This document shows positions 8,971 through 35,700 of a stretch of 64,000 bases of DNA, one piece after another. Origin of the DNA: Trissonchulus latispiculum (Eukaryota > Nematoda > Enoplea > Enoplida > Ironidae). Below the pieces are notes generated by a model. That model was given only the letters and a program-made list of their open reading frames with translations, ran no database searches and was not told the DNA's origin. Numbering within the stretch: the first letter of the stretch is position 1; every line of letters begins with the position of its first letter. A program made the position numbers and the translations under genes. The stretch spans positions 1-64,000 of the forward strand of contig JASAND010011000.1 of the NCBI GenBank assembly GCA_030248195.1, read 5' to 3'.

Positions 8971-9010
8971 ACGAAAGGCTGTCACAAAACCTAACTGATT
9001 ACAAGGAATG

Positions 9011-9252
9011 GTTGGTGTACAATTAAGCGATGGGCGGCTGCGGGGGCGGAGGTAAGCTTAATTCAACACTGGTCGGTTTAATGCTTTTGGTATCGTTGGT
9101 GTAAAGTTAAGCGAAGGGGGGCTGCGGGGGGGGGTAAGCTTAATTCAACACTAGTCGCTTTAACGCTTTTGGTATCGTTGGTTTAAAGTTAAGCGATGGG
9201 GGGCTGCGGGGGGGAAAGCTTAATTCAACACTGGTCGCTTTAACGCTTTTGG
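9011..9252. repeat. Tandem repeat, three units of about 82-84 bp
   Basis: Units starting near 9011, 9095 and 9177 share GTTGGT, AAGTTAAGCGA, GGCTGCGGGGG, TAAGCTTAATTCAACACT and TTTTGG. Units differ mainly in the G-run length. The array lies in the intergenic region before gene 2. Confidence 0.85.
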
Positions 9253-9911
9253 ACAGGAGCGAAAAAAAGGTAGGAGATTGGAACTTTGGTCGTCGCGTGT
9301 TAACGCCTTTCTGTGGATCTTACTTGTATACGCTGTTGCGTACATAGTAACGCAACAAAAGGCAAACACAACCCGACAGTCCTCTCTTACAGCGGGGTAC
9401 GAGCTGAGCAAACTGAGAGCAATATAGCCAGTCCTGCCCTATCCTGTAGAACTTGTACATTTTCGTAATGTGGAGTCTAAATGCAAGGACAAACACCGGC
9501 AGTCGAACACTCGTGTCAGCTTTTTTTTTAGTTGTTGCCCTTGTGAGTGCTCGTGAAAGGACTCTACCTCGTTGCCCCCGCTGGCGGTATTTTCCCTTTT
9601 TGTTAGTGAACACTGTTTTAAAATGTTGAAGTTAACTGGATTATAGCCCTATCATTCATGGTGTGTTGACTATAGTGGCGTAACCATTGTCACTATTCAC
9701 TCTAGGAATAGGGGGGAGGGGGGTGTTGGTTGTTGAGAGTAATGTCTTTACTGCAGTTACTACGTAGAAAATTTGCACCATCAGACCCTTTTGCGACAGT
9801 TAAGAGATCGTCATCCTGCAACATGTATTTAAGAACTCTGCAGGAACAACAGACACAGCAACAAGGAGTGAACATGCGCACCTTCACTACATCAACACAG
9901 AATGCACGGCT

Positions 9912-13324: not shown

Positions 13325-14698
13325 ATGGCTACTGGTGACGACCCGATGTATATTGACCTTGTTTCTATCATCGGGTCTGACGATAAAGAAGAATTACACA
13401 TTATAGATTTGGAGGATTGTGAAATACTTATGATCCTCTTTCCTAGTCCACAGCGCACGCCAAAGCGCGGACCTTTTGATCGTTATTTGCCATATTATCT
13501 GGCAGCAGACAATTATGTGCCTCACCAGCGGGTGGTCGTCGCTGAGGACTGCCTTTTCTATGATATTGAAATTCCTGTTTCCAACAACATAACTATACGG
13601 AGCGGTAGGTGTCGTGTGTATAGATCGTGAGCGTGACACCGTTCAAATTAAGTTTATATTTTGTTTTTGTGCTCAGTTACTTCTATACCTAAAATGGTTA
13701 CACACTTTTGCTCGTTTCGTATTATACTTTTACCATTCTGTTTGTAGGTAGAATGGTCCACAGCTCCTGTGAGCGTAATGCCCCAGACGAAAGGGAAAAT
13801 CGGGAACATATCATGCGTATGTGGGAGCAGGCAGTTCGACAACAAAAGGATGTTGTGAAATTTCCAGGGGCAGAGGAATTGTTAGCGGGCACCATTGTCT
13901 GCTATACAACAGATACAGGTTAATAATTACATTTGCGGTTTCTGGTGATACCACAACTCCAGTGGGGCAGCACCAGTCGACATAAACGGATTGAACTATA
14001 ACCAATGAGACCTATTCCACTGACGCTTGTGCTACAGTCTTTAAGGTAAAGGCTTTAACAAAAACAAGTGAAAACGTGCAAGCGATATATTTATGCTACT
14101 AATTAAAGAGCGTAGCGTATATAGTCGCTTAATACTTCAGATACAGGTTACCATTTTACACATGTTGTTTGTGTAGACACGATAACTCCTGTGGGGGAGC
14201 AGCAGTCGGCATGAACGGATACTGTTATAAGCAATTAGCCCTATTCCCACTGAGGCTCGTGCTATAGTCTGAAAACTGAAGGGTTTAACCCAAAAACAGT
14301 GAAAACGTGGAGACGATACTTTTTTCTAGTAATTTTTGAGGATAGCGTATATAGTTATTTTTTGTTTCTGGCGCTAGGCGAAACGTTCCCACCATGTCAG
14401 TTCTGTTATGTTATTAGTTGTTATTCTACAGCAACCTAATGCGTTTGAAATTAAAAGCTAAACTTGATGTTCCCTCTTTTTAGAAGTGACAGATGTCGGC
14501 ACTGTGAACTTGGGACATCTTCCCGTCCTTCCTGCAGCTATACAAGGCGGCGTGTGGTGTCGCCAGCTTGTCCAGCCAGACGTGACTCCTTCTTTGATAA
14601 AGAAACCGTTCTTTTCTTTCGTCGCTACGGCCCCCCCCCCACTCATACGTGGCTTTGCCCTGATCAAATCAGAGCTTTCCTCCCTGGATCAACTATGA
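13325..14698 (+). CDS. Multi-exon gene 3, about 221 aa, with a probable frameshift in its last exon
   Basis: Exons 13325-13604, 13748-13918 and 14484-14698 join in frame through phase 1 introns. The start has a strong Kozak-like context. The last exon crosses a run of 10 C bases (14631-14640). The frame read as given stops at 14698. The neighbouring frame after the C run stays open to 14775 and contains LCPDQIRAFL and GRVYFIIHRA, which align with the LDxVKYTL and FxxxLFxxLWN closing elements of genes 1 and 2. The family C terminus therefore sits in the other frame, which suggests a base missing or extra in the C run, either from sequencing or real. LLAGTIVCYT at the exon 2 end matches AAGDIILTSA of gene 2. 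The function is unknown; family membership is inferred from these matches. Confidence 0.6.
13910..14366 (+). repeat. Tandem duplication of about 228 bp at the exon 2 end of gene 3
   Basis: Copies begin with CAGATACAGGTTA at 13910 and 14138 and share CTCC-GTGGGG, GCAGTCG-CAT, TGAAAACGTG and GCGTATATAGT. Copy 1 contains the real exon 2 donor. Copy 2 has an acceptor (TGTGTAG, ending 14176) opening a short in-frame alternative end that stops within 13 codons, so an alternative short isoform is possible. Confidence 0.75.
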
Positions 14699-15254
14699 AC
14701 TTAAACGGACGTGTGTATTTTATCATTCATCGTGCCACCTTGTTGCAGGCTTTCCGCCTTTGCGGTTTAACCTGATGGTCTTTTCCTGTTGGACTTTAAG
14801 CCCTGACACGATGCTGGGGGCGTGTTGACTTTTTATCTTTTGATTTTTACTGTTGTCTTTATCATTACACGTGTCCGCTCTGTTCGTTAAAAAGTTTTAT
14901 ATTTTTTACACTTGTTGTCTGTTTTACTTCATATGTGCCGCCAGTTTTATGTGCATTCAGCTGAAGGAATTGTGCTGTGACTGTTCTATGAAATTAAAAT
15001 TTTAAATGAAGTTTTTGTCTTTTAATGTTGTGTTTCGCTAGTGTGGCCAGCTCTTGTCTCTGTTCATATTAAGTATAAAGGAAATTGTTTTAGGCAAGTC
15101 TACACTATCGTGTTTGGAAATCATAAGACAGGGAAAGGAAAACTGTTTTAGAATATCCCCATTTAGCTTTTGGTCTAACTGGGCCCAGCGGCCTGTGTGG
15201 CCCTGACCAGGGTCCGGATCGGGCCAAAAAATTTTGACGCACCCTGTAAAAAGT
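14699..15254. other. 3' flank of gene 3
   Basis: Up to 14775 this probably still encodes the family C terminus in the shifted frame. An ATTAAA signal lies near 14993, in AAATTAAAATTTTAAATG, a plausible poly(A) site. Nothing else is seen before the repeat array. Confidence 0.45.
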
Positions 15255-17300
15255 TCTGTAGAGGCCATGAACAGTGACCTACCAGCCTAAGATAACACCC
15301 CGTGTATAATGTTCTCTAGAGGCCATGAACAGTGGCCTTCCAGCCTAAGATAAGGCTCCGCGTATAATCGTCTGTAGACGCCATGAACAGTGACCTTCCA
15401 GCGTAAAGGTGTCAGTTCACCAGCCTCGTGGCTGGCCTGGCCCGCGAAATTTGTTAAGGGCACAACTCAAGTTAGAAGGAATTGTCAAATACGCCGCTAA
15501 CCGGCCAGGCGCAGTCGGGGGCGATGAGGCCCGGTCAAATGTTTGTTGTGCAAATTTCATAATTTCCACAAATTCTCTGGATAGTAAACTCAAATTTAAG
15601 CTTCCAAAAGTTTTCTCAGCTGTAATAAATAGCACTAGCTATTGTTTGAAACTGTTTTTGTATGTCCGCCCTTCACCGGGCCGATCGGGCCTACACATGG
15701 TCGGCGGGCCCACCGCGCCTATCACGCCTTGATTTGGGCGTTTGGGTCGGGGCCAGGCCCACGCCCGACTTGGTCCGGACAGAGGCCTGGCCTGGTCGGT
15801 TCAGCAGCCTCGTGGTTGGCCTGGCCCGCGAAAATTCTTAAGGGCACAACTCTAGTTAGAAGGATTTGTCAAATACGCCCCTAAGTGTTTGATTGAGAGG
15901 CAAAGTTCCCATCGTTTCTTGAACTAAGCTAACCGTAGAAAAAAGGCTTGAGCCGACAAAAATTTTTGCACATTTTTTTTGAAATGTGTAGAAAATATTT
16001 TAAAAGTCTAAGATTAGTTATATGCCATGCATTAATGTTAAAGGAACCATTATGAAATAAAGGCTTCTTTACTAAAACAAATGACTAAATGATATTAGCG
16101 CTAACTTTTTGTGAGCAAAGCGAATCGCTACTTTAAATGTATCAGCCCCGTGCCCTTTTCCTGCTCTTCCCAAACTAATGCTCAGGGTTGGATAGTTGTA
16201 GTTTGTGATAACTATTTGTGTATCTTATCTGCTGGAAACGGAATCAAGTCGGTTTTCGTACGCAGATACAGACGGGGGGGAAGAGAGTGTCCGTTAATTA
16301 AACGGAGAGGGAACACAGTAAACGCGTTTAACCGGGCCCGATGAGGCCCGCTCAAATGTTTGTTGTGCAAATTTCATAATTTTCACACATTCTCTGGATA
16401 GTAAACTCAAATTTAAGCTTACAAAAGTTTTCTCAGCTGTAATAAAATAGCACTAGCTATTGTTTGAAGCTGATTTTGTATGTCCGCCCTTCGCCGGGCC
16501 GATCGGGCCTACACATGGTCGGCGGGCCCACCGCGCCGCTTGAGCCGACAAAAATGTGTACACGTTTTTTTGTTAAAAAAATGTGTAGGAAATATTTTAA
16601 AAGGCTAAGATTAGTTATATGCCATGCATTAATGTTAAAAGGAACCATTATGATATAAAGGCTTCTTTACTACAACAAATGACTGAGTGATATTAGCGCA
16701 AACTTTTTGTGAGCAAAGTGAATCACTGCTTTAAATGTATCAGCCCCGTGCCCTTTTCCTGCTATTACCAAACTAATGCTCGGGGTAGGATAGTTGTAGT
16801 TTGTGATAACTATCTGTGTATCTTATCTGCTGGAGACGGAATCAATGTATTAAATAATGGATTTGTCAGCGGCCCCCCACCCGCCGTCAGTTTTCGTACC
16901 CAGGTACAGACGGGGGAGAAAAGTGTCCGTTAATTAAACGGAGAGGGAACACAGAAAACGCGTTTAACGATTTTATTATTAAGTTTTAGGAGAGGATTTC
17001 CCTGCTTACTGAATTTAAGGAGGGCAGGAATCTCCCTTTACCCTCTGTTGTAACGGGATCAAATCAAAAATTTAGGGGAGGACGCGCCTTTACCGTCGGC
17101 GCATTCACGATTCAAGAATTAAGAAACAAATTTTCCATCATTTATCCCACTATGTAAAGCGTAAAAAAAATACTTGAGCCGACGAAAATTTCTGCAAAAT
17201 TGTTTTTCTTCCAACATGTCTAAAACATATTTTTAAAGCCTACCATTAGCAACATGACATGTATATGCAAGACAATATATGTAAAAAGGAACATTAGGAT
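15255..17300. repeat. Composite tandem repeat array upstream of the primase gene
   Basis: Several interleaved repeat families occur here. Three copies of about 62 bp (from 15263, 15321 and 15381) carry GCCATGAACAGTG-CCT-CCAGC. A CAGCCTCGTGG-TGGCCTGGCC block occurs at about 15420 and 15804. A block with GATGAGGCCCG-TCAAATGTTT and CCGGGCCGATCGGGCCTACA occurs at 15523-15720 and 16340-16538. A CTTGAGCCGAC-AAAAT block occurs near 15948, 16539 and 17173. A block from CGAATCGCT through TGCTGGA-ACGGAATCAA repeats at about 16122 and 16719, a period near 597. The GC-rich palindromic CCGGGCCGATCGGGCC block alternates with AT-rich tracts. Confidence 0.8.
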
Positions 17301-17492
17301 ATAAAAATGGTTTCTTTAATACAAGCAATGAGTAACCCCCCCCCCCTCTCTGACCCACAGTAAACGCGTTTAAGGATATTCTTATTAACTTTTATTTCTT
17401 GTTGTGGTTTCAGTGAGTGCGATTCTGCTTTCCCCCCACCCCCGGTTAAAATTGCCACAGCCAGTGCTCATCGGAACTCTGTCAATTCTTCA

Positions 17493-18707
17493 ATGAGTGT
17501 GTGGCAGCAATTCCAGGACACAGACTTTGAGGTGCGTTATACGTGCGGTTGTAATGCAGACCGAAAAACACTTCTGTATGTTAAACTGAGCGAGGCCCTA
17601 CATGATTTCAACAAGTTCAGCCACAAATGTCCACTTGCGGTTTTTGCGTATGAATATAGGAAGGGCGGGGCCCGTTTCTACATGTTGGTGGACGTATACC
17701 ACTTTGTTCACTTATACTTCGTCATCCCAGCTGACAAGCGCTTCTTCAACGAGATTCTACCATATTTCCGTCCATGCAAACTGTACGTAGACATAGACAA
17801 AATAGTCGGGACACTAAGTGAGTCTACGAGTTTCCATAGGCTAGCGAATGCCCTTGTGAAACGTATGCCTTATGCTGTAGCAGAAATTCTTGACATCGAG
17901 CCTTCGGATGTCAGGTTAGTCATTTTGACAGCTCATAAAGCGGCGAAAATCAGCTATCACATCGTTGATTGTGGTCCGAACACTTTCCGTAACGCTCCAG
18001 ATGTCGGTCGCTTCATGAGTTTGCTGTCCAACAAGGTCCCCGAGGGGCTGCGAATATGGGACTCCAGCGTGTACTCGGTCAACCAGAACTTTAGGATCGC
18101 CTACTCTAGTAAGAACGGCCAGGTACGCCCGCTCATATTCGACTCAGCTGCTAACCCGGCAAGCAGCAGAGAGTTTATCAGCAGTTTGGTAGGAGTGTAT
18201 GATTGTCCCTTCGAATTCTCCAACGGGATGCCTGTGGACGATCGTGTCCTTCGTATATTCAACCATGGTGCTTCCGGTACTACTTTGGCCCGCCCTACAG
18301 TTCAAACCGGGCCACGACAACAAATAAATAGGGAGCCCACACAGTGCACGGTAACAGTTGGTAGTGGCCAGACACTGACTGATGAAGAATTCGCACATAT
18401 CAACAGAGACGCCCCCGTTCTGTTCCCCGGTTTTGATATCCGTTCCATAGATGTAACTACCAATTTTATTTTCATATCTATTCGTAACCACCACTGGTGT
18501 CCCTTTCTTCAGAAAAACCATAAGTCTAACCATTCATATCTTATGGTTCGACGCGCAAGATTTCTGTATCAGTGGCGGTGTCATGGCAACTCCTGTAAAG
18601 CGGCTCAAGAGGCTGCTCGCGGGGACCCCTACGGTCCGTGTATGTGGTTCAAAATCATAGCTGGAAGAAAATGTCTACCTTACTATCAGCGACAGTATTT
18701 TCTGTAG
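17493..18707 (+). CDS. PrimPol-type primase-polymerase (archaeo-eukaryotic primase superfamily)
   Basis: A 404-aa intronless protein. PrimPol enzymes make primers and extend DNA, restarting or initiating replication. The order of motifs fits the family. VFAYEYRKGGARFY and the following aromatic stretch match the N-terminal primase fold. YVDIDK gives acidic metal ligands D100 and D102. KISYHIV carries the S154-x-H156 nucleotide-binding motif. WDSSVYSVNQNFRIAYSSK gives the third acid D190 and the family NFR-SSK signature. A C-terminal zinc knuckle has C336, H343, C363 and C368; the spacing C-x6-H-x19-C-x4-C is what I recall for human PrimPol and the UL52-type zinc domain. All catalytic and zinc residues are intact, so it could be active. 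ATG 17493 is the first methionine and keeps the expected N-terminus. It lies between the repeat array and the transposase gene, all on the same strand. Confidence 0.88.
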   Translation: MSVWQQFQDTDFEVRYTCGCNADRKTLLYVKLSEALHDFNKFSHKCPLAVFAYEYRKGGARFYMLVDVYHFVHLYFVIPADKRFFNEILPYFRPCKLYVDIDKIVGTLSESTSFHRLANALVKRMPYAVAEILDIEPSDVRLVILTAHKAAKISYHIVDCGPNTFRNAPDVGRFMSLLSNKVPEGLRIWDSSVYSVNQNFRIAYSSKNGQVRPLIFDSAANPASSREFISSLVGVYDCPFEFSNGMPVDDRVLRIFNHGASGTTLARPTVQTGPRQQINREPTQCTVTVGSGQTLTDEEFAHINRDAPVLFPGFDIRSIDVTTNFIFISIRNHHWCPFLQKNHKSNHSYLMVRRARFLYQWRCHGNSCKAAQEAARGDPYGPCMWFKIIAGRKCLPYYQRQYFL

Positions 18708-19211
18708 CAGTATATATGTGTGTTTTTTTGTTTTGTGCATTATTGTTCGTATACGGTTGCTCGATTTTTTTTTGGGCGAGCCTGTGAATCATTTTCTATT
18801 TTGAACACATGTCAATTTCAGCATGATTTTGCTTTGACGCTGGATAGTGTAGGGGAGACAACATTCAAACTTTCTATGATAAATATAGACAGAAGGAAAT
18901 GTACAGAAAACTTACAGTTGAACAACGATAGATCCTTTTTAATAACACTGCGCATTGGCCTGTTTGTTTTTAGTCATTATACCTGTAGATTTATTCGAAA
19001 TGTGAACAAACATACAGTGTTTATAGTAGGTTACCACACGTAGAAATATTTCTGTTTTCTATTGTGGACGAGGGAATACGCCATCGCAATCTTTTTCTTT
19101 TATTTTTTAGAAAGAACTTCCCTGGCAAGTCGCTCTGCAACTTTTTCCTTCTGGCGGAAAAGTCTCCACGATACTTGCCCTGCTGCAAAGTCAAAACTAC
19201 TGTCTGACGAT
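18708..19211. other. Spacer between primase and transposase genes
   Basis: AT-rich with no convincing coding region. An acceptor-like TTTTATTTTTTAG ends at 19110, and the transposase frame is open upstream of ATG 19212 to about 19062. An extra 5' exon or an earlier start therefore cannot be excluded. Confidence 0.45.
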
Positions 19212-22200
19212 ATGCCCGTTGACACAGGGACTGGAATAGACTGGTCATTACTAAAACGGGATAGACTGCATCTGCAAAAACATGGGGAGGTTGTCACACA
19301 CACTTTGGGCGACAAGGAGGTTAGGTGTATGGTATGGGACCCTATGACAAAAGTCCCAGGGGGCTTGAAATGCCCTCTCCATAATTGTCCTTTGGTTTCC
19401 GGCAGGTGGGGGGACCGTAGGGACAGGCCCCTCCGCGTTTTCTGGGACGACACTGTGCCGCTCTTTGTCGCCCATAGGAAGTATGTCTGCAAAGCTGAGG
19501 GGGGCGGCAGGCACATCTATGGCTCTTGCGATATTGAAATAATGTTGCAAGCGTCGCGTTTGATTGATATTCCGCTAGTTCCACTACACCGCTCCGGTCT
19601 GACGACGCGCTTGATTAACCATCTACGATCAGAGTTCGGAACAAAGAACAATATGAGCGAGATTGTAAACACACTCAGGAGGAAATACTGGAAAAATGGG
19701 TATACAGGGACACGTCGACCGTCACGAACGTATATACGCCAATGGATCCTCCATGACTTTCGATTGAACTATTATCTATGGGCAGAGTACAAAGAGTGTC
19801 GCTACTGTTTTCGGTTCACGGGCGACGTGTATTTTGTTTCCGTGGATCACACCTTCAGGTTCGTTAAGACGTCGGGCTTGACTGAAAACGGTTTGTGGAA
19901 CAGAACATTCTACGCATTGGCCACTATATTGGATGGTTTCGGGATTGTGCTAGGACTTAAGCTGTGTAAGACCACGCGGTACGAGGAGATTAGCGATTGC
20001 ATCACGTCTGCAGCTGAGGAATTGCGTGGTCTAGGCAAACAGGTCATGTATTTTGTAACTGATAGCTGTTGCTTGGTGGAAGGTAAAGTTAAAGAATTAC
20101 TTGGTCCACAGGTGAAATTGTGTCAGGACCTCTTCCACATACAAACTCGCCTAGGAAAAGGGATCTCCAAGACACATCCTCTGTACCGCGAGTTCGCCCT
20201 GGCGTCAAGAAAGGTTTTCCGGCAACCTTTCGACTGGGGTCGTCGTAGACGAGCAGCGACACCTGGCGTAGAAGAAATGTTAACGAACTTTGAAAAATTC
20301 AGAAACGAATGGAGTCTGAAGACATACCGTAGAAATCCAAATGGCCCGCTAGAGCGTGTCGTTAATGACAAATTTGATTCAATTTGTGACAGAGTGGCCG
20401 TCCATATCCGAAAGGGCTGTCTAAGGTGCGCCTTTTTTTCTCATGTTTTACCTCTGTTTTCCTGCTTTCAAAGTTGTTCGAAAACAAAGTACTATGCATC
20501 TGAGAGGCGGGGAGCGCCCCCGTTTGGTTAACACAAGAGTACATACAGTACAAATCAGAATCAAGTACCTATGAAGCCAGCTTCAGCTTCGCTTGATGCC
20601 AGACTTGATTCATGGAACTGATGCTGAAGCTGGCTTGTGTTTATGTTTCTTATGTTACTTCTTTTGTATACTTAAAGTCAGACAGCATAAAAAAATAAGC
20701 TCAGCTGAGCTTTACAACAAAAAGCAAAAATAGCTAGTAGCGTAAAGTCAGTTTTTATGCTGTCTGACTTTAAGTATACAAAAGAAGTAACATAAGAAAT
20801 ATAAACAGAAGCCAGCTTGAGCATCAGCTTCATGAATCAAGTCTGGCATCAAAGCGGAGCTGAAGCTGGCTTCATAGGTACTTGATTCTGATTTGTACTG
20901 TAATAACTAGAGTATGAGAAGCGTCATACTTTTAGTTTTTTGGTTGGTGCCATCATTTTCACATTAACCGCGTACCATTTAGAGTAGTCGTTTGTCCTTA
21001 GTTAGACTCTTAGTTATGATCTGCTCTTGGTAAAAACTAGATGAAAATGGGAAATCTAAACATTATAGAATTTATAAAATAACACAGCCATGTTGAATAA
21101 AAATTTAAGGAGAAGAATACTCAGCAAACATAGCTGTTTGGATGTAGTAGCTGCTTGTACTATATACGTAAATTATCATCATTTTTTTGTGTTTTTGCTA
21201 ACGAAAGCTCTAATACTACTCTAGGTCTAAGGCTGCGATGATTAAGGTGTTGGTTCATTACAAGACGCGAATACGGTTTGTTCTGCCAAGCTGTGCCCAT
21301 ATTGATTCGCTCAGAGCCTAGTCCTCTACTAGTATATTTTTGTTTCGGAGCTGATCGGACCCATTTCTGACACATAATGAGACCTACGTCAGTTTCCATA
21401 ATTGCGGATCATACTTTAATTGTCCTTTTTTTTAGCAATATACCAGTCGGCGTCGGTACTAATCGCAATGAAGCTTTTCATCGCCACATCAAGACGGCCC
21501 CCATTTGCTCCGTGTCGCACGCGGGTATTGACCTGCTGATGGCTGTACTAGCTTTATTCAGAGATCGCTGGAACAAGACGAAGCACGACTTGTGCAGCGG
21601 TGAAGACAAAAGAGCTGATGACCGTCTCATCATGACCAGAATTTTGGAAGCTCTAAACTCGGACATTGACCAAAGGATACCGGAAGCTTCTGTTCTCCGG
21701 CGTCTGTACTGGAACAAACTTCTCCTTGTTTCGCCTACAGAGCGTGATAGGAGTGCGGCCGTCTCTATTCTGGCTTCATTGGAAGACATTGAGAGGACGC
21801 TGGCGCTGGAAACGCCCACACGCCTCCATCAAAACGTTGCGCATGAAGAGTTTTGGAGTAAAGTTGAGGCGGCGGCCCCTGACGGCTGTGTCGTTCACTG
21901 GGGTGGACTTTTTTCGTCCTTCTGCGAAGCGCTGTCATCTGACTTATTCAAACAGTTTGTCCAGGACTCTTCCTGTCGTTCCAAGAGGATGCCGCAGAGT
22001 TTACGTTCTGAAATTGTCGTTGATCGCCTTCGTAAATTTCTTTGGGAAAATGATAATTGGAATCGTTATGTCGGATACAAATGGTCTGCAGAAGCTGTCT
22101 CTAGCTTTGGTGAAAAACAGCTGATTGAGTGGCCTAATCACTATGGCGGAGCTCAAATTATAGCTGACTTTTTCGAGATACCAGTAGTTGTGGTCACAGA

Positions 22201-22933
22201 TGTTCCGCTGGTTCCTTACTTCATTCTCTCCCCCGCCACCCTTGGTTACCTGTGCAGAGATAAGGGCTGTTTCTTCCTCGGTTGGAGACGCTCTAAAAAT
22301 AAGTTTTTGTGGCTATGGATGAGTTTCCCGAGCAACCTTCACCATCATCTGTATACAAATTTTGTACGAAACATGCCTCCAGAACGTCCGCCATCCGCCA
22401 GGAAGGCCCCGTGTCGTTGTAGGCGTTACGGGGGCAACTGTTGTCGCAGATCAGGGTTCGCGGCAACTAGGAGGACGACATGTCCTTGTCTAGATGCAGG
22501 GCAGGCATGTTTGACATGTGGATGCTGGGGCTGTCAGAATCCTAATGGTCGTCGCACGGCTAGCAAAACGCCCTCCGTGTTGGCCACAATGCGTATGAGC
22601 GGGCTCCAAATGACACCGGTCCCCGCAAAACTAGCAGCTTTGAATTTCCCTTCCACCACTCCACTCTACTCGTTAAAGTGGACTTTTCTTGAGTACCTGT
22701 TGCTTGCTGGCAATCTTAGGCGGAGACAGGGGACCTGTAGGGTGTTGAACATTGAAAGCGTCTGCGCAGCATACAATTCACAGCGTTTGTATCTGTCTTC
22801 CGGCGGTGTCACAGCGACACACCGCTCCGTTGATGATATTAAACGCACAATAAAAGGTGTGGTCGAGCGATGTGGACTGGTCGGGGGCGCTGAATATTCA
22901 AGTCCAGTTTTCCAGGTGTTTTGCTCGCTGTAG
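19212..22933 (+). CDS. DDE-like transposase family protein with OTU-like and CXC cysteine-rich regions, about 903 aa
   Basis: Two exons, 19212-20425 and 21436-22933, joined by a 1010-base phase 2 intron. The join restores KGCLSNIPVGVGTNRNE, a signature I recall from a transposon-like family common in cnidarian and fish proteomes. In order: an N-terminal CPLHNCPL zinc-like motif (about residues 50-60); an RNase H-like core with SVDHTF (D212), FVTDSCC (D284), CQDLFH and TNRNE (E417), the likely catalytic acids; an OTU-like region (about 550-710) with GGLFSSFCEALS and HYGGAQIIADFFEIPVVVV, where the usual catalytic DGNC is not clearly kept; a CXC region (about 718-776) ending CLTCGCWGCQNPNG; and a C-terminal helical region with LKWTFLEYLLL. 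I expect nuclear DNA cutting and joining, with CXC binding DNA. ATG 19212 is the chosen start. KDZ or Zisupton-like membership is possible but unproven. A late AATAAA lies at 24736. Confidence 0.75.
20546..20900. mobile_element. 355-bp foldback MITE with TA target site in the transposase intron
   Basis: Both ends read CAGTACAAATCAGAATCAAG and its complement, flanked by TA (20544-20545 and 20901-20902). Arms of about 165 bases are near-perfect complements around a short centre that includes AGCTCAGCTGAGCTTT. The TA target site and length suggest a Tc1/mariner-related MITE. It lies entirely inside the intron 20426-21435, so splicing should remove it. Confidence 0.88.
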
Positions 22934-25439
22934 GGGAGTGTTGCTGCCCGTGGTAGTTGCCTGTTCAATTTTTTTATGTGAGCGCAACTATGTATACACT
23001 GAATGTCTGTAACGGTGTCACAACGTCTGTAAACATTTTTATATTTCTTACAGTGATTGCATTTTGGAAGTTCAGCTTTCAGATTCAACGTCGCTCGTCT
23101 TTTAAACTCTATTCCCATTCCTCTTTGTCGCGCCGTTTCTGTTCGATTACCACGTATTCTTGTTTTCGTGTTTGTAGATGTGTACGTGCGTTTTCTGTTT
23201 CAATATTAGGCCAATGTAAACCTTTAGTCATGACCGTCTCGCTTCTGTGGTTCACAAAATGCGAATGTGTGCGTCCACTTAATACTCTGGATATCTGTGG
23301 AACTGCTCTTTTGTTAACGAACATTTAGTTCTCTGTGACTATACGTTGTAACTTTGTTTACAGACTTACAGTGGTGTCCGTCTGTCATCGGTTTTCGATC
23401 CTTCTACTCCCGTGTTACTTTGCTTTCCTTTATATTATTATTCACATGCAGTGTTTTTGTGACCTTTGTTTGGAAGTGTATTGAGTGTGACGGCTTAACT
23501 GCATACTGGTTATTGTTTAGTTATCTGCGTCCGTGTATATTGTCTATTTGTTTTGTGTTCTTTTTGGAGACATGTGCGCTTTGTTTTTCGTTGTGCTCGG
23601 CCAAAGAAGTTCCTGTTACCGCACTGTTTCCACGTTTGGTAATTGTATTAGCGGTCTTTTCACTGTAGTTTGTTGTGTTTTGTGTTTTCTGTTTTGTTTG
23701 ATGCCCGTGTATCGTTGTTTTTGTCGATGTTTGTGTGATATATATTTTTTGATGTTTTTAAATCTGGTTTCTAATGCAAAATTCAGTTGTCCACCAGTTT
23801 TTTTTGTCTGCTTTGTGCAGTGAGACCGTTTAGAAAATAATGTTCACGACTTCTGCGCGAGATATTTGCTTTGTAGCGTTACAATACGTATTTCGGCCAT
23901 GAAAACGAGTAGCAATATATTTGGTCTACGTTTCCCCTGTCTTGTTTGGATTACGCCCCTTCCCCTCCGTACTCAAAATCATTAAAACTAGAGCAAATCA
24001 TCTAAAATTTGTTTTTTTTGTTTAGCTACGAGCACGTTGTCTAACCTACAGTGTGGTGAACTTTGTTTGCGCTTGTGTAGTACACAAATCATAGCGTCTG
24101 TAGTTTCATGAGAAAGCGGGTTAATTTTTATAGTTCAGTCTAGATTTATTCTGTAGTCATCGTTTCGCTTAGTTTTTGTCTTCGGTCGTCTACTACTATT
24201 GTATTCCTGTCTGTAGACCTGTGCGTACGTTTTCTGATGCTATATTTCTCTAATGTTATTGTCTTCGTCGTCATCGACCCGGCTTTGCACTTCAGTGAAA
24301 GTGGTAGTGTACGTAGTGTTGATACTGTACATGTCTTGTCAGCTAATGACTAGTTAAGAAGAATTTAGTATTATGTGGCTATATGTTGTAATTTCCGTTT
24401 GTTGACTTTCACTGTAGTTTGTTTGATATCAGTTTTCGTAATTTTTCACGGTCGTGTGAGAAACTTGCTCAGTTATAATTTTCCTATCCTTTTGCGCGTA
24501 GCTTTTCTTGTACCGTTCTTTGTTCACATATGCGTCGGATTTTGGTTGTCTTCGCCGAAAATAATGCCTTGTGTTGTCTTGCCACCGTCACTTTTTGTAA
24601 TTGTGTTTGCAGTCGTCTTAATGCAGTTTGTTTTGCTTTTGTTATTTGTTTTGTGATACGTTCGTTTTCGTTTGTTTATCTGAGTGTTTATCTGGTTTAT
24701 GTTTTGTGATGTTGTGTTTATTTGCTTTGTTACACAATAAATTTTTTCTCCTCTACAACTCTTCATTTGATGTCCACAGTTATAAGTGTGCAGTACTGTA
24801 AATCTGTAGAAACTGTGAAGGTAGGGTGTTGAAGTTAGAACTTTAAACAGGCAACTGTCGTTATCAGTGTATTTGGGCGATAGGACTTGTACTGTAAGTG
24901 AATAGAGTCAAAGTACAGACGTACGAGTACATTTTCTAACGAGAACAATTAGGTTCCCGTAAACCAGGAGGTTACTTTGGCGTTACAGATACTACTGCAA
25001 TGTGTCCCGATACAAAACACATCCGTAACAAAAGAAAAATAACTATAAAGGCGACACCTCTTCAGAATTCAGCATACCATATTTATAAAAGCAAGATCAT
25101 CTACAGCTTTCTTTTTAATCCGTTTTTGTCTTTTATCAAATGCATCGTTTCCGAAAAACGCAGTTAGAAAGCCTAACTGCGATTCGAAAGTAGGAAACAT
25201 TAAGGAGAGAAAGAGGAAAAAGAGCAAAAAAACGAAAAATTCCGCTTCGTGGGCGCGAATGTTATAGTTTTTAACCGCATATTCATTGTGTTAGCCAAGC
25301 ATAAGCTTTAAATGCATCCGATTTTCGTAGAAAATTACCATTTTTGCCTATAAATGTCAAGAATTTTTAAAATTTTGTTCAGTCCTTCAGTATAAAAGGA
25401 ATTAAAGATTTGAAGACCGATATTATTGCAAAAACAAAA

Positions 25440-25534
25440 AATTTCTTCAACTTCTGGGGGGCTCCGTCCCCCGCCCCCCCCCCCTAAATAGTTTTACGGC
25501 CCCCCCCCCGTCACGAAAGCCCGGATCCGCCAGT
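25440..25534 (-). repeat. Possible transposon end with G/C runs
   Basis: Read on the minus strand from about 25534 it begins CACTGGCGGATCCGGGCTTT, then runs into long G tracts. A CACTGGCGGATCC start followed by a G run resembles the ends of many short invertebrate transposons as I remember them. No partner end was found nearby. Confidence 0.4.
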
Positions 25535-26166
25535 GCTTCTTGCGCAAAATGGGATATTTCAAATGAGCTATTACATGTCTGTAATTATAATTTCTTGAAC
25601 TGTTCCGTTACCGCGCGCCGCCGCACGGAAATGCTCATATATACCTGCTAGCAGAAACTATACTAATTTTACTTTCGGGGAATAAGACAAACTATCACTG
25701 TAGTGCTGTGGTTACACAGCAAGGGAGAGAGCACCTGATGCCCAACTATGAGGAAACTCAGTCAAAGGACCCTGGTCAAAAGTCACAAGTGTGACAGTGA
25801 TTACAGTTCATAGGGAGACAGTACTAGACTTATACGAACTAGTTGTATGTGATCACAAGGTGGACTAGAAGTCAGGGCACGATTTAAAAATAACTCCCTT
25901 AACTATTGTAAAATGCGGTCACGAACGCGATAATAATCAGGGAGAGAACAAAAAACAGGCGTCTCCAACAAAACAGACCAATTAGCCTACACTTTGTTAC
26001 ACCAAGACAGAGAGGGAAAATGATGTCCAACTATGACGATAGTCAGTCAAAGGACAAGTGCGTGCGTTCCCTGGTGCTTCGGCGAAACAGAAGCTAGGAG
26101 ACAGAATTGCAAAGTCATCAGGCCAAACGGAAACAGACTACCAGGTGTAATCAGTAGTGGGGTTTT

Positions 26167-26352
26167 GATTCGGGCCTAGTAGCGGACGTGGTCTTCGAAG
26201 ACCGGACCTAGTACTGCAACCAGTACACATCCCGAACAGCTAACTAGGTTTAAACCCACGATTCGGGCCTAGTAGCGGACGTGGTCTTCGAAGACCGGAC
26301 CTAGCACCGCAACAGGTACACATCCCGAACAGCTAACTAGGTTTAAACCCAC
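26167..26352. repeat. Tandem duplication, two units of 93 bp
   Basis: Units 26167-26259 and 26260-26352 are almost identical. Each starts GATTCGGGCCTAGTAGCGGA, contains the palindrome GGTCTTCGAAGACC, and ends ACTAGGTTTAAACCCAC. Confidence 0.9.
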
Positions 26353-26410
26353 CGCGTGCTGGGGGCCGTAGTGGACTGAGATTACACTTCCCCCCCCCGC
26401 GTTTTGTTTG

Positions 26411-26496
26411 TGTTCAAAGCTGAGGCAGACGCCTTACTCGTTGCAGTACACTATTTCATCGGAGTCAGTCATAGCCTATTTAGCGTCGTGTGCCGT
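26411..26496 (+). pseudogene. 86-bp duplicate fragment of the helicase first exon
   Basis: 26411-26496 matches 26842-26927 with about two or three differences. The downstream copy lies inside the helicase exon and encodes CSKLRQTPYSLQYTLSSE. The upstream copy loses the homology abruptly at both sides and runs into a GC-rich repeat and a stop, so it is an orphan exon fragment. Confidence 0.75.
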
Positions 26497-26742
26497 TGGC
26501 GCCGGTGCTGGGGCCGGGGCCGGGGCCAGGCCCCGGTGCATCCCTAAATATTAGTTACAAATATGGAAAAAAAAGATGGGGAATGGTGCGTGATGGCGGG
26601 TGTAATGCATTGTGTTCAACCCCCCTCCTCCTTGTCAGACCGCTGTAACGTTCCCTGCCTCCTGTGCTCATTTGTTTACCGTCTATAGCAAGTTGCATGG
26701 AGACAGGGGTGTTGAAAATAGAAAGCTTAGTTGTTGTTTTAG

Positions 26743-29700
26743 CGCTGGCCTGTTACACTTGCTAATGGCCACAGAAGCGGGGGGAGGCCGGGGGGGCCGC
26801 CCACACTGGATTCACTTGATCTTGAAGATATTGAAGAAATCTGTTCAAAGCTGAGGCAGACGCCTTACTCGTTGCAGTACACTCTTTCATCGGAGCCAGT
26901 CATAGCCTATTTAGCGTCGTGTGCCGTCTGCTACAGCCTGGCTTCCTCTCACATCCTGGGAATCCTCTTACAGCTCGGCTTGTTTGTGGCGCAGGGTTAG
27001 AAGATATATTTACCTGTCTTCTACAGTAGTAGCGGAGGGGAGCTTATTATATGATTGCACTTCTTTTTTTGTTGTTTGACTTTAAGTGTGTGGTGTAGTT
27101 GTTATTTTATTTTGTACAATCGGTTGAATAAGGAAAGAAGGGAAACTGCATCAGACGAACTTCTGCTACGGTTGCGCCTCTAATGTGTACGGTGAAAGCA
27201 GAAACTTGTATGTTTGCATGTTTTCTATGTTTTTTGTTCAGACGCTGAAATTGAACGGAGAGCGATTGGTACTGATGAATCTACTAGGGAGTCGGTTGCG
27301 AGCATGATCGTTCTGACAGGGCGCCCGGGGACAGGTAAAACACCAGCTATGGGGGCATTCTTCAGGGACGTAATAAAGGATGCCTTGGGAGCAGAACTGT
27401 ACGATCTAAAATGTTTTGGCACTACTACTACGCAAGGGATTGAGCGGTATCAGAATGAGGTGAGGAAATACAAACATACGGCGGCTAACCTGTTTTGTGC
27501 GGCATTTGCGTTTTTATACCTGTGACAATGGCGAAAACAGTGGTGACTAGGAGTAGCGCTAAAAATTACAGTTGCAGTACTTTTTATCTCTTAGCGTTTA
27601 CTGATTGCAAAGATGTGACATAAATGTTTCCTGCAGACATATTACATAGACGGAAAATGTAGAAGAATCCAACATTTGTCCTTCACTTTATGTGTATCTT
27701 TTACAGCTAATTGATATGGGCCATGACCCGACCATTGTGCTAATCAGTGACGAATTCCAAACTACGCTCAATAGTATGGGCAAAAGTAGTACAGGAACAG
27801 CCAGTGATAATCTTTGTTGGTTGAACTCCAGATGGTCAGGCTTTACAACGAGTTCAGCGTTCAAGTCTTCGGACTTTCAAACGCCAGTTGATGCTCCAAT
27901 CCACCTTCTAGCTGCAATGGGACACAAATCTATGCTAAAGTTCTACAACACTGCCATGAACAGCGATGGACTGTGGGATAGGTTAGATAGGTTTAAGTAA
28001 ATCTAAATGAGGTGTTATAGATTAGTGGTTCAATGCGGCAACTTGTCCTATGCATTTGTGTTCAGCCCATTTTCTGTTATTGTTTTTCTTTTCCATTAGT
28101 AAGTATTCTTTTGGATTTCAGAGTGCTTATGTTCCCTTCTACAGTGCGGTTCTATACGCACAATAAAGCTCGTCAAGGAGCCGCAGTGTTAAAGAAAAGG
28201 TTTAGTCAACATTCATTATCAGATGCATTCAAACGCGCTTGGGATCTGAGCCGTAGACGGTATGCGTCCTATGGTGTTAGAGCAATTTCTCTACAATTAC
28301 ACAAAGTCGCCCTGTTCCTTTCATAATATATAGCTCCTCCATCGCTTTCATTATAATTTTTGTTCTAACGCTACTTGGACGAATAATTTACAGAGACAAC
28401 CTATAGTAGTGAACCTTTTTTATTTTTTAGATCGTCTCCACTGCTATACACGTGCAGTGAGGGTGCAGAAAAGGTGTTGCGCCAATTCTGGGACCGCAGT
28501 GTTCCACTGATGAATCAGGATCTTGACAAAGGTCGTCTATTCACAATTAATCCCAAGATCAGCGCCCTAGCCCTGCGGACAGCTGTTGCCTTCCATAATT
28601 TGAAATTTATGATAAGAATACTGGAAGACGGTCCCGGTTCGGCCACCCTCAGCTTCGTCATTGATGAAGAAGATATGCAAAACGCATTGGGCATCGTCCT
28701 TCAGTCTGATCTATGGAAACAGGAAATCCGGAAGGTTAGACACTAGAGGCGGAACTGTACAATTTATATGGATATTCTATATTGCCATTCATTTCATAAG
28801 AATGTATCTCATTAATAGCGGAGGCTGAATATGATCTGTAGACAGTCTAGTTGTTGTCTATGCATAGGGATAGCTGAATGTGCGTAATCATCATAAACTA
28901 GTTTACAGCAAAAGTAAACTATTCAGTAGTTATTATTACTTTGTTGTTTTGCCCTATGGCCTTGTTTGTTCGTTACAGCTAGTTGGCACTGCACGTCCGC
29001 CTCCTCCGGCGCCCGGGATAGACGATGACACAATGGCTGGGTCGATTGTGCAAGATGTACATTTGAAAGCCGCCAGGATCCCCGGAATGTATGTCGTGCC
29101 TTCAAAATTGAGGAAGCGGTTCCACTCAGGATCAAGGGCTAAACTGAAGCCTAACGTAAGTTGCTTTAATGAACAAAAAACCCACATATCTAGCAACAGA
29201 GAGAGAACCCCGCAAAATAAGATCACAACTTTAATTTTACTCAATGAACACGTAGATAAACAGATTATATTTACTACTATTTGAAAGTAGCGCTTTGCTT
29301 TTCTCTACCTTTTCCTTAGCATATCATTCTAGTGAGCCTTGCACTGAAATCAGTTGGTTTTATTTTGACAAAACGCTCGCTTCTGCAATGTAATGCTCTT
29401 CTTCCTCTACTTTTCAGATTAATGCCATCCTTCGTTTGTGTCCATTCCTACTACCTCTGCGAAATCCTCGCGGAGCTGAAATATTTTGGAAAAAACCGGG
29501 AGACGAAGTCGACACGGAACTTCTGAGGCTTCTTCCAATGCCAGTGGATACATACACCAGAATACGGTCTGAGCCGACGCCGCAACAGTACGACACTGCG
29601 GACTTGCGACAAACAGACACGATCTACGGTACTTCAGTAGAGATACCTTCGGTCACGCCAAAACAGCTAGGCACCCCATATATGGTCCTCTTACTGAAGC

Positions 29701-30542
29701 TTCAGGATCTCCGTGTCACCAGTGTTACAGGGGTCACTGACGCCGAATACGAAGTGGTGCGGCAGTTGACACAAGACACTGGGGCGCAGGTGTTAACAGA
29801 AGACAGTAGTAGCGACAGCAGCACAGAACCGCCAGATTCTCCCCGACCACTATCCCCGTCCGGGGATATATCAGACACAGGCGGGCGTTCGGACGCTTAC
29901 AGTGAAACACGAGACGACACGCCGCTCCCCACACGCACTTTTCCTGTTCCCGACAATCTGGATGAGGAGGTTGGTGCACACAGTGGAGAACACGTAGACG
30001 CGCCACGGCGGACACGCGGCGCGGGGGGTGGCGGACTTGAGACCGACGATGAAGGCCGAAACGAGTGGGAAAGACAGCGGCTTTATGACGACCCGCACGT
30101 ACCCGAGTCCCTGGAGGCTACGCCGCCCCGCGTTTCGTCTGGCATTCTTTCAGGAGGTGGGCGTTTGGACAACACTCATTTAAGTGGTCCTACGGCTGAG
30201 GAAATCGCCAATAGATCCGGGGCGGTTGAAACAGGCAGTGTTCCAGCGGCTTCCTTTTCTCCAGCTCTAGGTGATGCTGGGAGCCGTGCGAGTAACCCGA
30301 GCCCCGCGAATGAAGAAAGAGAACCTGATCCTATACGTACCCGACCGGTGGCTGTAAGAGACTTGCTCGTGACCCCTCCTCCCTCAGTCCGCGCCCGTCA
30401 GGCTGCCAATGGAGGCGACAGGGGGGTTCGTCCTATTTTGGCTACTGGTTTTGCGGCGCTGTTATGGAGTGACGGGCCGCCATCAAAAAGAACGCGGTCC
30501 TCTTTACAGAACGGAGCAGAGGACAGTGATGGGGATGATTAA
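26743..30542 (+). CDS. P-loop ATPase resembling DUF3987-type primase-associated helicase, about 830 aa
   Basis: Exons 26743-26995, 27242-27459, 27707-27990, 28122-28259, 28431-28734, 28979-29155 and 29418-30542 join in one frame. Walker A is GRPGTGKT (about residues 111-118) and Walker B is IVLISDEF (D172, E173). FKSSDFQTP, then LLAAMGHKSMLKFYNTAMN and DGLWDRL, follow in the order I recall for DUF3987 ATPases, and a helical block with NPKISALALRTAVAFHN closes the core. The last 240 residues are Ser, Pro, Asp and Glu rich and probably disordered, ending GDD. Such ATPases commonly accompany primases in replicons, so it may unwind or load at the origin with the primase upstream. The start is unclear: the frame opens at 26743 after an acceptor, while ATG 26766 is in another frame across a G run, so an indel or an upstream exon is likely. 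ATTAAA at 30671 may end the transcript. Confidence 0.7.
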
Positions 30543-32714
30543 GCCTGCAGCAGTGGAGCGGGCATCTGTGTCCCTTTTTTCGTTGCTAAATTTGTTGTAG
30601 TTGTTTTTTGTTTCTGCTATATGTTTTTGGATCACTACTTGTTGGAAATGTGGATTCTTTGTTTTTGGTGATTAAAATTGTCGTTTGCAGTCGTCGTGTT
30701 TTTTATATTTCTTCGCTGGTTGTAACTCATTTGTGCTGATAGGGACACTGTGTTGTGTTTGTTTAATATAAGGAGTCTTTGCATCTGTGTCTCTCTATGA
30801 AAAATTATTAGGAATTATTGAAAAAGAATTAGGATTTCATGTTTACTGTCATCATTGTGTAGACGTGGGTTGTCATAGCTCAATGTTTTCTGTTGCCGCG
30901 CCCCAGTGCGCGCGCAACAGGTGGCGTGTACAAATGGCCCATTATTTCCCCTTTGTTCCTTGTTTTTGCTGAATGTCTTGATTTCTCTCAGAACTACGCC
31001 CTTTTCCCTCCACTTGTATCCTTATTCGCGACTTTGTATCGCGCGTGTGATTAATCCGATTATAACCGACCGTGAATTCCGTTATAGGTGATGCCAACGC
31101 TTTGACGGGATACGTAAACGTGAAGCGTTAGCCGCGACAAATACCTTTCGGCCAGCCCGTCTGTTGTAGTGCACCTAGTGAAAATAGCTAAATAATCAAA
31201 CTAATAAACGACTGCTTTTCTGATAGATTTGCGTTAGATATAGGTTTTATGGAAATAATAGATATGAGGGCAGGTCGGACGTTTTCCTTTAATTTTCGTT
31301 GTCGGGGCACGACAACATTAATTTCGCTCGGCTGGCCACGGCTACCCAGTAAAAAGCCGTCGTTGTTTTTCGCTTCTGGCATAGAGGATTTTGAAACTAC
31401 ATCAACTAGACTATGCTCGAGTGGGAACAATTCAATTTCGCTTTTAAGCTAATAACAAGCATACAAAACATTTAGAATTAAAAGAATTGAGTGAACGCTA
31501 AAATTTTTCTCCGGTGATACTGTTTCTTTGAGTTACGTTTCTCACAGGTACATTTAGTCCGAAATCTATCGAGACCAGCCCAGACGACAAAGGAGGGGAG
31601 GGAAAGAACAACGACAGCTAACTGGTCCCTCAAACAATGAGGTCAGATTCAGCAAAAAAACTTTGTTTAATTCAGATAGTACCGTAAAACGATGACGAAT
31701 CCTGGTCGTTTTTCGCCTATGGAGGCCAATGGCATAATAGCGTTTGGTCTTTCTGGGTTTCCAGTTATCAGTATGCCAACATTAACAGGTACATGTGTTC
31801 TAATGTTTTCTTTGTGTAAATATTAGTCTGACTACTTTTCCATTTTCTTCTTTGCTGTTCTGTTGCGGATAGGTGACAGTTAAGCGAGTGAAACAGACCA
31901 AAACAGAAAAGAGAAAAGTGTGAACTTCTTCAAACTATAGGTTAGGGTAATTTTCATAATGAAATTCACTCTCCCAAACTCAGGCTCAATACAGTACTCA
32001 CAGTGCTTATGTAGAGAGCATATAGATAGGCGGTGAAAAGACATAGCAATGAAGATGATTATAAATACTAAACTAGTCTTGTGCATAAAGTCTACACAGG
32101 GGGGAGAGAGGAAAGAATTAGAGATTTAGTGTCTTCATAACTTTTGTGCAGGTGGCCGCGTTTGTTCCTAATAGTTATTGTTATCACCTCTCATTTTAAT
32201 ATGGAGTGTGCAGTTGCAAATGTGCGAGAAGCACTTGCTGTTTGAGTTTACAGTGCCTCAACTTTTCTTTAAACCAGCTATGCTTCAGTAGTAATTGCTC
32301 AATAGGATCGTGCAATTAATTCTATTGCTGTGAGCGCAGCAGCGAGAGTGTTTTTGAAAAGCAATTTATCTTCTTGGCAATTTCTACAACAGTTTATTAA
32401 GGGTACGGACTTTGTCCTTCGTTGCATTTTTAAAGAGACTGACCATTCAAAATCAATCGCCATATGCAACGACTTTGCCAAAATAACAATAGGTAACGAA
32501 AACTATGAAAACGAGAGAACAATTGAAGCGTAAAAGTTTCCAACTCATATTGTCATTTTATGACGATACTTTCATCACAACTACAGAGTAACAAAGAGTG
32601 ACGCACGGCTGGTTTAAATCGTTTTGACTGTTCTATACCGGGCAGTTATTTCATATCCAGTGTTTGAATAGGAGTTTGCGATCGCGTATATTTTTATTCG
32701 GATTAAGAGCTGCA
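30543..32714. other. Intergenic region between helicase and the 23-exon gene
   Basis: Apart from the doubtful small gene at 31692-31923, nothing is well supported. An open frame at 32330-32533 (plus) reads like protein for about 60 codons but lacks a start with good context and recognisable similarity. 31249-31452 holds overlapping open frames on both strands without support. Confidence 0.4.
31692..31923 (+). CDS. Doubtful two-exon small gene, about 46 aa
   Basis: ATG 31692 opens a 97-base exon ending at a strong donor (TTAACAG|GTACAT, 31788). An acceptor ending 31879 opens an in-frame second exon to a stop at 31921-31923 that is rich in lysine and arginine. The first exon contains MEANGIIAFGLSGFPVIS, hydrophobic in the middle. 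I recognise no family. It could also be a first exon spliced to something further downstream, or chance. Confidence 0.25.
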
Positions 32715-35700
32715 ATGTCGGCGCGAGTATCTGAATCTTCGAGTGAGTCGGACGACGGAAATGATATGAACAAGAGGGACTGTCCGGACAGGTGAGCGAA
32801 AAACCCCCCTGAATTACTTTGTCTTAGAGATGAGATCAGGGCCGACACGCGGCTCTGTATCAAAATTTGCAGACCCAGCCCGTCGCCCCGCCGTGAGTGC
32901 AGTTTAAGTCTGCACGGCCTGGCCCCGCCCTGAAAAGGCCTTTTTTAAAACTCTTCTATAAAGCTCACAAACACTTAGAATCTTTTATGTTCTGTCCTTA
33001 CGCAATATTATACGCTGGATCTCTCCGGGCTTTTTTCGTTGGGAGCTGCGCGGTTTCGGCCGTCCCCGTCGCGACAGCTCTGTCTGTATGTTACCGCTTT
33101 GCATTTTCTTCTTTTTACAGCCCAGACTCCACAGGAGCGGACATTGTTCCAGAGGAACCTATACAACCTGATGAGCAGTTTTGGGTCGTCCCAGAAAGTC
33201 CGCCTGCTTCCAACCAATTGGATTCCTCTGGCGCACAGTAAGTACAGTCCTACTTATACATAACTGAGACATAAAAGGGAATATCCATTACAACCGCGGG
33301 GTACGACAGTGCGCAACGCCACAGGGAAGCTAAATATGTGCACTTCATGGACTCAGACATCACGTTTTACATGCGTATCCGAAAAGGTTCAGACAGTGTC
33401 CTTTCTCTTCCCTACCCCCGTCACGTGCATTGCGTCTATCAAAACATTCTGACTCCTGCTGAACTGCCAAATTCCGAGGCATTTGGCTAATTGTGGAGCA
33501 CCACGGAATGTTGCTGAGGAAACTTGCTACTAGTTTTGGAATTTTGCAACTTGTGTTACTGTAGAGTCCGCGGATTGTTTCCAATCCTGCTGGAATTTGG
33601 CAATTTGTGCGACACAAAAACAAAATCTGCGGAAAGCTGCCGACGCCGTTGGAATTGTGTCATTTGTATTGGCACTTTCGGAATCCTGCTATTTGAGTTT
33701 GGTAATTGCCGATTGGAATCCTGCTAATTGTGCATCGTAGGTTGCACATTCCATGGAAATGTTGTCAGGTCCGCCAATCCGTAATATGTGCAACGTAGGG
33801 CGTTTTATGTGATGGCGATGTATCACGGCAGCACCCGTTCATTCGCAAGATTAAAGGTTTTCCTCGGTAAATACAAATTTAAAATCCTAATTTGTAGGAA
33901 TGTGGCTTGTAATTTATAGCTTCTAAACATGTTGCTGTTACTGAATGTAATTGTTTAGGTGTGCGCAAGACTGTTGCAGTAAGGAACAAAGCGACACTTC
34001 AACTTCTAACTATGCTTCAAAGGCGTGGTTTAACGCTTTAGGTTCTGGCTGGGTGCCTTAGGGCTCTGTTATAATGCTCGTGGCTGTATGGTACTGATTG
34101 GATCACTCAGTACCGTTACGTAGGTTACTTATTGTTTTTTAATAAGATGTAAGATGTTTTACTTGTTAACAAAATAATGTGCATAGCACAAAACACGCAA
34201 ATGTTCATATTTCTAACATATCAATAGTCAAAAAAGGCCAGATTAGTCCAATTGGGTAAGGAAACATCAGTCCAGTCATAAAACTGTGTACATAGTTAAA
34301 CAAAACAGTCTTAAAGTACATCAGTCTAATCAGTTTAGTCCAATAACATATGTACATAGTAAAACAAAACAGTTAAGATTGTTACAGTCCAAAGCATCAA
34401 ATTAACAGTTTAGATTAAAATACACCCAAAGTTAAGCGGGTTATTTCTGGATGAGGCAAAGGACAGGGGTAAATTCCATTTTATGGACATCCACATCCAC
34501 GTAACACAGTTTAGGTGATATCTCAGGGCGACCACATCCTGAGACTTTGGTCCATTTGTCTAAACAGACTTCCGACGATCTCTACAAGCCACCACATCGT
34601 CACAACGCAGCGGAAAATAGCATTTGGTGCAGTGGTCTTTCAGTGCATTGATGTCCTTTCTTAAGGCAAAATTTGAAAACCATAAGAAATAAATTCACAG
34701 CTGAAACAGGTAAATCACAAACTAGATTCATCTCGTAGCAAGCTCTGCCAATTTTTGGCAATTTAACCGCATAGCTTCACAGTAAATTTTGGTAAGGTGA
34801 GAGGTAAGCTTTGGACGGGAGCATCCCCCCCCCGGAACCCAACTCCCCAAAACATGGGACTACAGAAAATCGAAGAAAGAGTAAAAAGGCAACTTTTCTG
34901 AATTTTCACGCTTTTTACGTCAAAACGAGGCTTGTTTTGACAGCTTAAAGCGTTTATACACGATTTTAAAGCGATTTGAAGTCAAAATCTGAAAAACTTT
35001 TTCAAGAAATAACCATTTTTGGGCATATTTTAGCTAACATTTTGGTTCCAAAAAGGGCCGGGGGGGGGGGGTTGGGCGGGGGTAGCTGAAAGTTGGAGGA
35101 GGGTAAATAAAAAATTCTTGGGGGGTAAGGTGGGCCGAAAATTTTGGGGGGAGTTCACCCAAACCCCCCCCCCCGCCCCCCACCCCCAGTTGGGGAGAGT
35201 ACCCCCAACCCCCTCCCCACCATTTGGGGGAACGTCCCCTTCACAAAAGTTCTGGGGGAAGGTTACAAAATGGTTGGGGATGAAAGATAAACCTACCTTA
35301 CACTTATGCAGACCTTGACTACTGCTCCCACAAGCCGAGTTCTGCCTCCCCACCAAAGGGGCCCAAACTAAGAAAAAAAGTAAAAATTTTGGAAACATTT
35401 TTTGTAATTTTTGAAAATTCAGATAAAACTGGAGAAAACAGCTAGAGACGTTTAAAATAGCTTTCTGTAACATACACAATTATAAACCAGTATATTGTTG
35501 TTATTATTTTGTCAAATTTTGTATTTTTCCTATTTTCGGATATCTGAAATTGTAACAGACGCATTTTAGCACGTTTAATGCACTGTACATCAAAAATGAG
35601 CATTTAACAAGTATAAGTAAATAATTAGACAAATTGTTCTAAGTTTTGGCTAAATTATTACTAAACTTTAGCGGTTTATCTGCAATATCTCATCTGCAAT

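Follow-up and report, generated by a model that had tools for sequence, protein, structure and literature searches.

The presence of genes for a primase-polymerase (PrimPol), a DDE transposase and a P-loop ATPase, all on the + strand of one stretch of animal DNA, raises the question of whether they belong to a mobile element that takes part in its own copying. The window, that is the whole stretch of 64,000 bases analysed here, corresponds to bases 1-64000 of contig C7490 (67373 bases), and the genome containing it (734 Mb, 21732 contigs) was our sample. The initial annotation had delimited a candidate self-replicating giant transposon at 17493..30542; the trio does lie in this interval, which however covers only part of the element. 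We consider it near certain that the trio lies inside a mobile element. With a probability of roughly 55%, we propose that this element represents a family of giant DNA transposons in which PrimPol and the ATPase would provide element-directed DNA synthesis.

The three genes were found together on 36 of the 21732 contigs among the matches listed, which is more than expected by chance, and a one-strand set is present in each of these contigs, so that the succession on one strand first noticed in the window is a recurrent arrangement. The order is PrimPol-DDE-ATPase in 32 of them, the DDE gene being located 21-23 kb upstream in the four others; C3762, C18085 and C10408 additionally carry opposite-strand matches. 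Considered separately, PrimPol matched at least 67 contigs, DDE exon 2 at least 66 and the ATPase exon at least 66. Among the matches listed, 45 contigs are shared by PrimPol and DDE (chance probability ~1e-104, hypergeometric, all contigs counted alike), 39 by PrimPol and ATPase and 41 by ATPase and DDE; single genes occur on 19 (PrimPol), 22 (ATPase) and 16 (DDE) contigs, many of these being weak or short matches. The identities of the three genes to the window copy are also correlated, both over 35 contigs (Spearman 0.84, 0.71 and 0.89) and in 29 distant contigs (Spearman 0.72, 0.49 and 0.81). Location of the three genes in unrelated positions, which had been named as a possible refutation, is thus contradicted by their joint recurrence within the same genome.

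Evidence of mobility comes from the right boundary of the element, described by the following features:

1..49408, + strand: part of the element within the window, its left end lying beyond the contig start (homology to C8207, matches ending at 49408)
49384..49408, + strand: right terminal repeat of ~25 bp, the same terminus being found at 11 places with up to 2 mismatches
49409..50338, + strand: host flank, an interrupted amiloride-sensitive sodium channel gene (Pfam ASC, E=2.4e-13) that is uninterrupted in C11633, C16693 and C9

This end is sharp: matches from other copies stop at 49408 and those to the host flank start at 49409, the frame recognised by Pfam ASC being at 49355-50338. A search for the terminus allowing up to two mismatches returned these 11 places and none for the reversed control. 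Ten of the 11 were read (the exception is C12149, where the terminus lies at the start of the contig) and revealed ten different flanks with about 25 bp in common. Behind the terminus, six interiors are alike, C375, C6909 and C16622 share a second kind and C15502 has another; the two kinds of end resemble each other over ~40 bases. From the common ~25 bp, the ten flanks and the two kinds of interior, we infer short terminal inverted repeats; the alternative of an element devoid of them was rejected, as two kinds of interior stand behind one terminus. The termini of the second kind, which sit on contigs without a trio match, would then be left ends. Among the terminus contigs none has both ends, and the searches returned no copy with both junctions on which a target-site duplication could be read. 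The trio is present on two of these 11 contigs (C7490 and C6690), the ATPase alone on C1445, and eight have no trio match. Three of the terminus contigs (C17760, C16622 and C15502) extend over 41-71 kb on the element's side yet lack a trio match, and are therefore interpreted as rearranged copies, non-autonomous copies or relatives of another sort. Three routes to the left end were followed, by way of the left region of C8207, where satellites and palindromes occur, of the left flank of the empty site described below and of the dispersed-repeat target of C6690 (41 matches, none in C6690), and none of them led to it.

The interrupted gene offers a second line of evidence. C11633 is 99% identical to the host flank over 2092 bases (5 differences in 275 bases in the direct comparison) and goes on beyond the insertion point without the element, and in the paralogues C16693 and C9 the arrangement is likewise uninterrupted. 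C11633 thus appears to be an empty site; it could be either an allele or a copy duplicated recently. The sharp common terminus with different flanks, together with this apparent empty site, supports the earlier proposal that the element moves. Homology over tens of kilobases, non-coding DNA included, and the introns of the genes would also suit the segmental duplication of a cluster of host genes; this explanation was rejected because of the shared terminus with ten different flanks and of the end at 49408 with its apparent empty site. It is further opposed by the C6690 copy, which lies inside a dispersed repeat (right flank L040) with at least 36 other matches at 91-92%, and we regard it as very improbable. 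Further into the host flank, the window contains a dispersed repeat (56450-58940, matched in C14743, C3762 and C10408) and, on the - strand at 55055-56044, a 329-codon open frame encoding a chemoreceptor-type GPCR (Srsx). Together with the size of the genome, the sodium channel and this receptor, both of a type found in animals, are the basis for taking the DNA to be animal.

The element is at least 49.4 kb long and continues past the contig start, in agreement with the description of a giant element. Homology to C8207 at the DNA level, in non-coding as well as coding regions, spans window positions 537 to 49347 and is broken by indels. The order of exons is kept in diverged copies, over window positions 6879 to 45724 in C14743 and 705 to 30506 in C3762 (part of the contigs compared). 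Besides the trio, the conserved coding features are:

6900..7238, + strand: conserved exon, paralogous to 11500-11898 (tblastx to C14743 and C3762; alignment A10), without any Pfam match
11500..11898, + strand: conserved exon upstream of PrimPol, paralogous to 6900-7238 (tblastx to C14743 and C3762)
13334..13627, + strand: conserved exon, 51% identical to C14743
29412..30542, + strand: frame with a conserved start, the remainder being mostly low-complexity
40895..45724, + strand: small conserved exons (tblastx to C14743)

Several structural peculiarities were also observed. Repeated units precede the right end (window 46800-48600), and the matches to C8207 and C6690 fall there into several overlapping segments. 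Tandem satellite and palindromic DNA was encountered in copies, within their left part or close to it (C8207:47662-54000, C4152:39402-47080 and C16622:26290-29195). Copies also form inverted pairs: head-to-head in C3762 (25235-48155 versus 54782-77638, arms 95-99% identical), tail-to-tail in C10408 (up to 99% identical) and, known from paired matches only, in C7404. These pairs may be replication traces or assembly artefacts.

The first gene of the trio was said to encode a PrimPol with all metal and zinc ligands intact, which our alignments confirm:

17493..18707, + strand: PrimPol gene in one open frame, from the ATG at 17493 to the stop at 18707 (alignment, profile match to human PrimPol)

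In eight aligned rows (numbering of the 17463 frame), the motifs D110xD112, S164xH166 and D200 are invariant except for residue 112, which is D or E, and C346, H353, C373 and C378 are invariant; we take these residues to be the metal/nucleotide motifs and the CHCC zinc ligands of an archaeo-eukaryotic primase. Seven of the rows show 33-56% identity with the window copy, stop-bearing copies having been left out, and the rows are partly non-independent (two come from the two arms of C3762, a palindromic contig, and C14743 hardly differs from C3539). Compared with the PDB at E up to 1, the PrimPol profile matched two sequences, both human PrimPol (E=1e-17). Family alignments were needed for the identification of both PrimPol and the DDE protein: single-sequence searches of Pfam, NCBIfam and PHROGs gave almost no match for either, and none of the 2411 candidates in a protein search with PrimPol passed the threshold of E=0.001. 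The family comprises at least 104 matches on at least 67 contigs in this genome; this gene is therefore not the single host PrimPol orthologue, the other refutation initially put forward, and this candidate was rejected.

The second gene is composed of two exons:

19212..20425, + strand: transposase exon 1, with a DUF6729-like zinc region and catalytic D at 19845 and 20061
21436..22933, + strand: transposase exon 2, with catalytic E at 21470, a degenerate OTU-like stretch and a CXC region at ~22412-22549

The intron between 20425 and 21436, read by eye, has GT and AG ends and is in phase. It contains a 359-bp near-perfect palindrome (window 20544-20902, arms 95-98% complementary), probably a nested foldback or MITE-like insertion, at which the DNA alignments with C8207 and C6690 break. 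The assignment to DDE-like transposases holds, since the triad formed by D212 and D284 in exon 1 and E15 in exon 2 (frame 21428) is invariant. As regards the accessory regions then described, nine cysteines of the CXC region are invariant in six rows, but the Pfam MSL2-CXC match remains below the cut-off (E=0.028). A working OTU protease is unsupported, the catalytic Cys and His not being conserved in six rows of the window-protein family. The transposase core is homologous to the DUF6729-DDE-OTU proteins P0001-P0009 (E=4e-38 over 344 columns). Of these, P0002-P0009 constitute a protein family in public assemblies and are probably transposases in their own right. In contrast to the window transposase, P0001-P0009 have one long frame and an intact OTU motif, with Cys and His present in P0002-P0006 and P0009, and no CXC region was seen in them. 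As the model of P0005 is poor, little weight was given to the result resting on it. Searches of the PDB with alignments A4, A8 and A1 gave no convincing match, and Pfam matches were obtained with the relatives only (MULE, E=0.052; ISL3, E=0.0036), the relation to Mutator-like or IS256 transposases not being significant. KDZ (Kyakuja-Dileera-Zisupton) transposases carry CXC-type domains; a Pfam search with the exons at E up to 10 gave neither KDZ nor CxC, single exons being of limited reach in such a search.

The third gene is distributed over the following exons:

26803..26997, + strand: exon preceding the P-loop exon, 84-85% identical to C14743 and C3762
27241..27471, + strand: ATPase exon with Walker A (GRPGTGKT), conserved across copies
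27674..27985, + strand: ATPase exon with Walker B (LISDE, within 27695-27985) and weak DUF3987 likeness, conserved across copies
28111..28263, + strand: ATPase exon, conserved in other copies
28399..28743, + strand: ATPase exon (alignment A3)
28973..29167, + strand: exon following the ATPase, conserved in other copies

The first of these is partly duplicated (window 26408-26497 and 26803-26997). Eight rows show conservation of the P-loop exon, with GRPGTGKT or GRSCTGKT, and five that of the Walker B exon, in which several copies carry stops. These data substantiate a P-loop ATPase; its attribution to DUF3987 (PF13148) does not reach significance, three of the five rows matching below the cut-off (E=0.016-0.023, 14.3-14.8 bits versus 27). 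As the exons were searched singly and unspliced, which lowers the score, a relation to DUF3987 is possible.

The trio genes are under purifying selection. The ratio dN/dS was computed with the close copies C8207 or C6690, dS being saturated in distant pairs, and is lowest in the transposase and in the ATPase exons tested (0.06-0.10 and 0-0.16, respectively). PrimPol has a value of 0.22, the other figures being 0-0.32 for the three upstream exons (0.14 for 6900-7238, 0.32 for 11500-11898 and 0 for 13334-13627) and 0.16 for the first 122 codons of the frame 29412..30542. One stop each was found in PrimPol of C8207 and in transposase exon 2 of C6690, which indicates that copies of the element decay.

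From the linkage of the three genes, the DDE protein would drive mobility at the termini; the roles suggested for PrimPol and the ATPase rest on their families and on their long conservation alongside the transposase. In the proposed mechanism, both ends of the element would carry the terminal repeat, and the transposase, guided by its zinc regions, would bind them and move the element. The ATPase would unwind DNA and PrimPol would prime, and perhaps extend, new strands. The element would thereby control some of its copying or gap filling, with the synthesis probably shared between it and host polymerases. Self-replication by PrimPol is plausible on these sequence grounds. Several points count against this reading: PrimPol is the sole replicative polymerase seen among the frames and exons submitted to Pfam, most terminus contigs lack a trio match, genes are broken in some copies and many contigs carry one gene of the three. 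We advance more tentatively, at slightly less than even odds, the wider proposal that the element represents a new class of giant transposons that replicate themselves in animals. In this view PrimPol rather than a family B polymerase would be the replicase, the P-loop ATPase the helicase and the CXC-bearing DDE protein the enzyme integrating the copies, the whole forming a long-lived and diversified lineage in one genome.

Cellular PrimPol is a repriming enzyme, and the support for mobility is independent of replication. Both points would suit a giant inverted-repeat transposon moving by cut-and-paste with host synthesis alone, PrimPol and the ATPase acting in repair, damage tolerance or regulation. 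Against this stands the fact that both genes have accompanied the transposase through long divergence while purifying selection acted on them, and we judge this explanation rather unlikely. A large DNA virus that has become integrated, or what is left of one, with PrimPol and the ATPase as viral replication genes and the DDE protein as an acquired integrase, would fit the size and the gene types and has a precedent in Teratorn. It is improbable in view of the introns of several genes, of the lack of any capsid or packaging gene among the frames and exons submitted to Pfam (part of the element) and of the lack of relatives in viral contigs, where DDE exon 1, PrimPol and the P0005 family had no confirmed match.

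Element-directed synthesis by a transposon, the reading that we prefer, invites comparison with known systems. Polintons/Mavericks are likewise large, with inverted repeats, and associate a recombinase with replication enzymes, as presented in PMC6431247. They differ by a family B polymerase, a retroviral-type integrase and, in many cases, capsid proteins; neither these nor packaging genes were recognised in the part of the element covered by the Pfam scans. To our knowledge, all known self-synthesizing eukaryotic transposons rest on family B polymerases. Among Polinton-like viruses, genomes of algal or protist viruses have been described. Some Polinton-like viruses encode archaeo-eukaryotic primases or a primase-polymerase, according to PMC4642659. 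They share this primase likeness with our element, but are defined by their capsid protein. Teratorn, in which a piggyBac transposase is fused to a herpesvirus, is a giant animal element that joins a DDE transposase to replication genes, as outlined in PMC6431247, a union also encountered here. It differs by ~90 genes including herpesvirus structural genes and a polymerase; our element has a different transposase and no recognised herpesvirus gene. In agreement with the view that this combination is not known from described animal transposon classes, no description of a PrimPol-DDE transposon or equivalent was found in the openly licensed PMC literature. The review PMC6431247 considers that a nucleic acid-primed polymerase and a primase joined to an integrase could yield elements of unprecedented size. 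The present family readily suggests itself as a comparable solution, based on PrimPol. It lends itself to studying how transposons exceed their usual size, where transposons and viruses with primases came from and how animal genes come to receive very large insertions. Giant DNA transposons themselves are known. Assignment to Polinton, Casposon or Teratorn is not supported; by analogy, the element plausibly resembles a self-synthesizing transposon in its working, and what would be new is the putative replication module in a giant DNA transposon.
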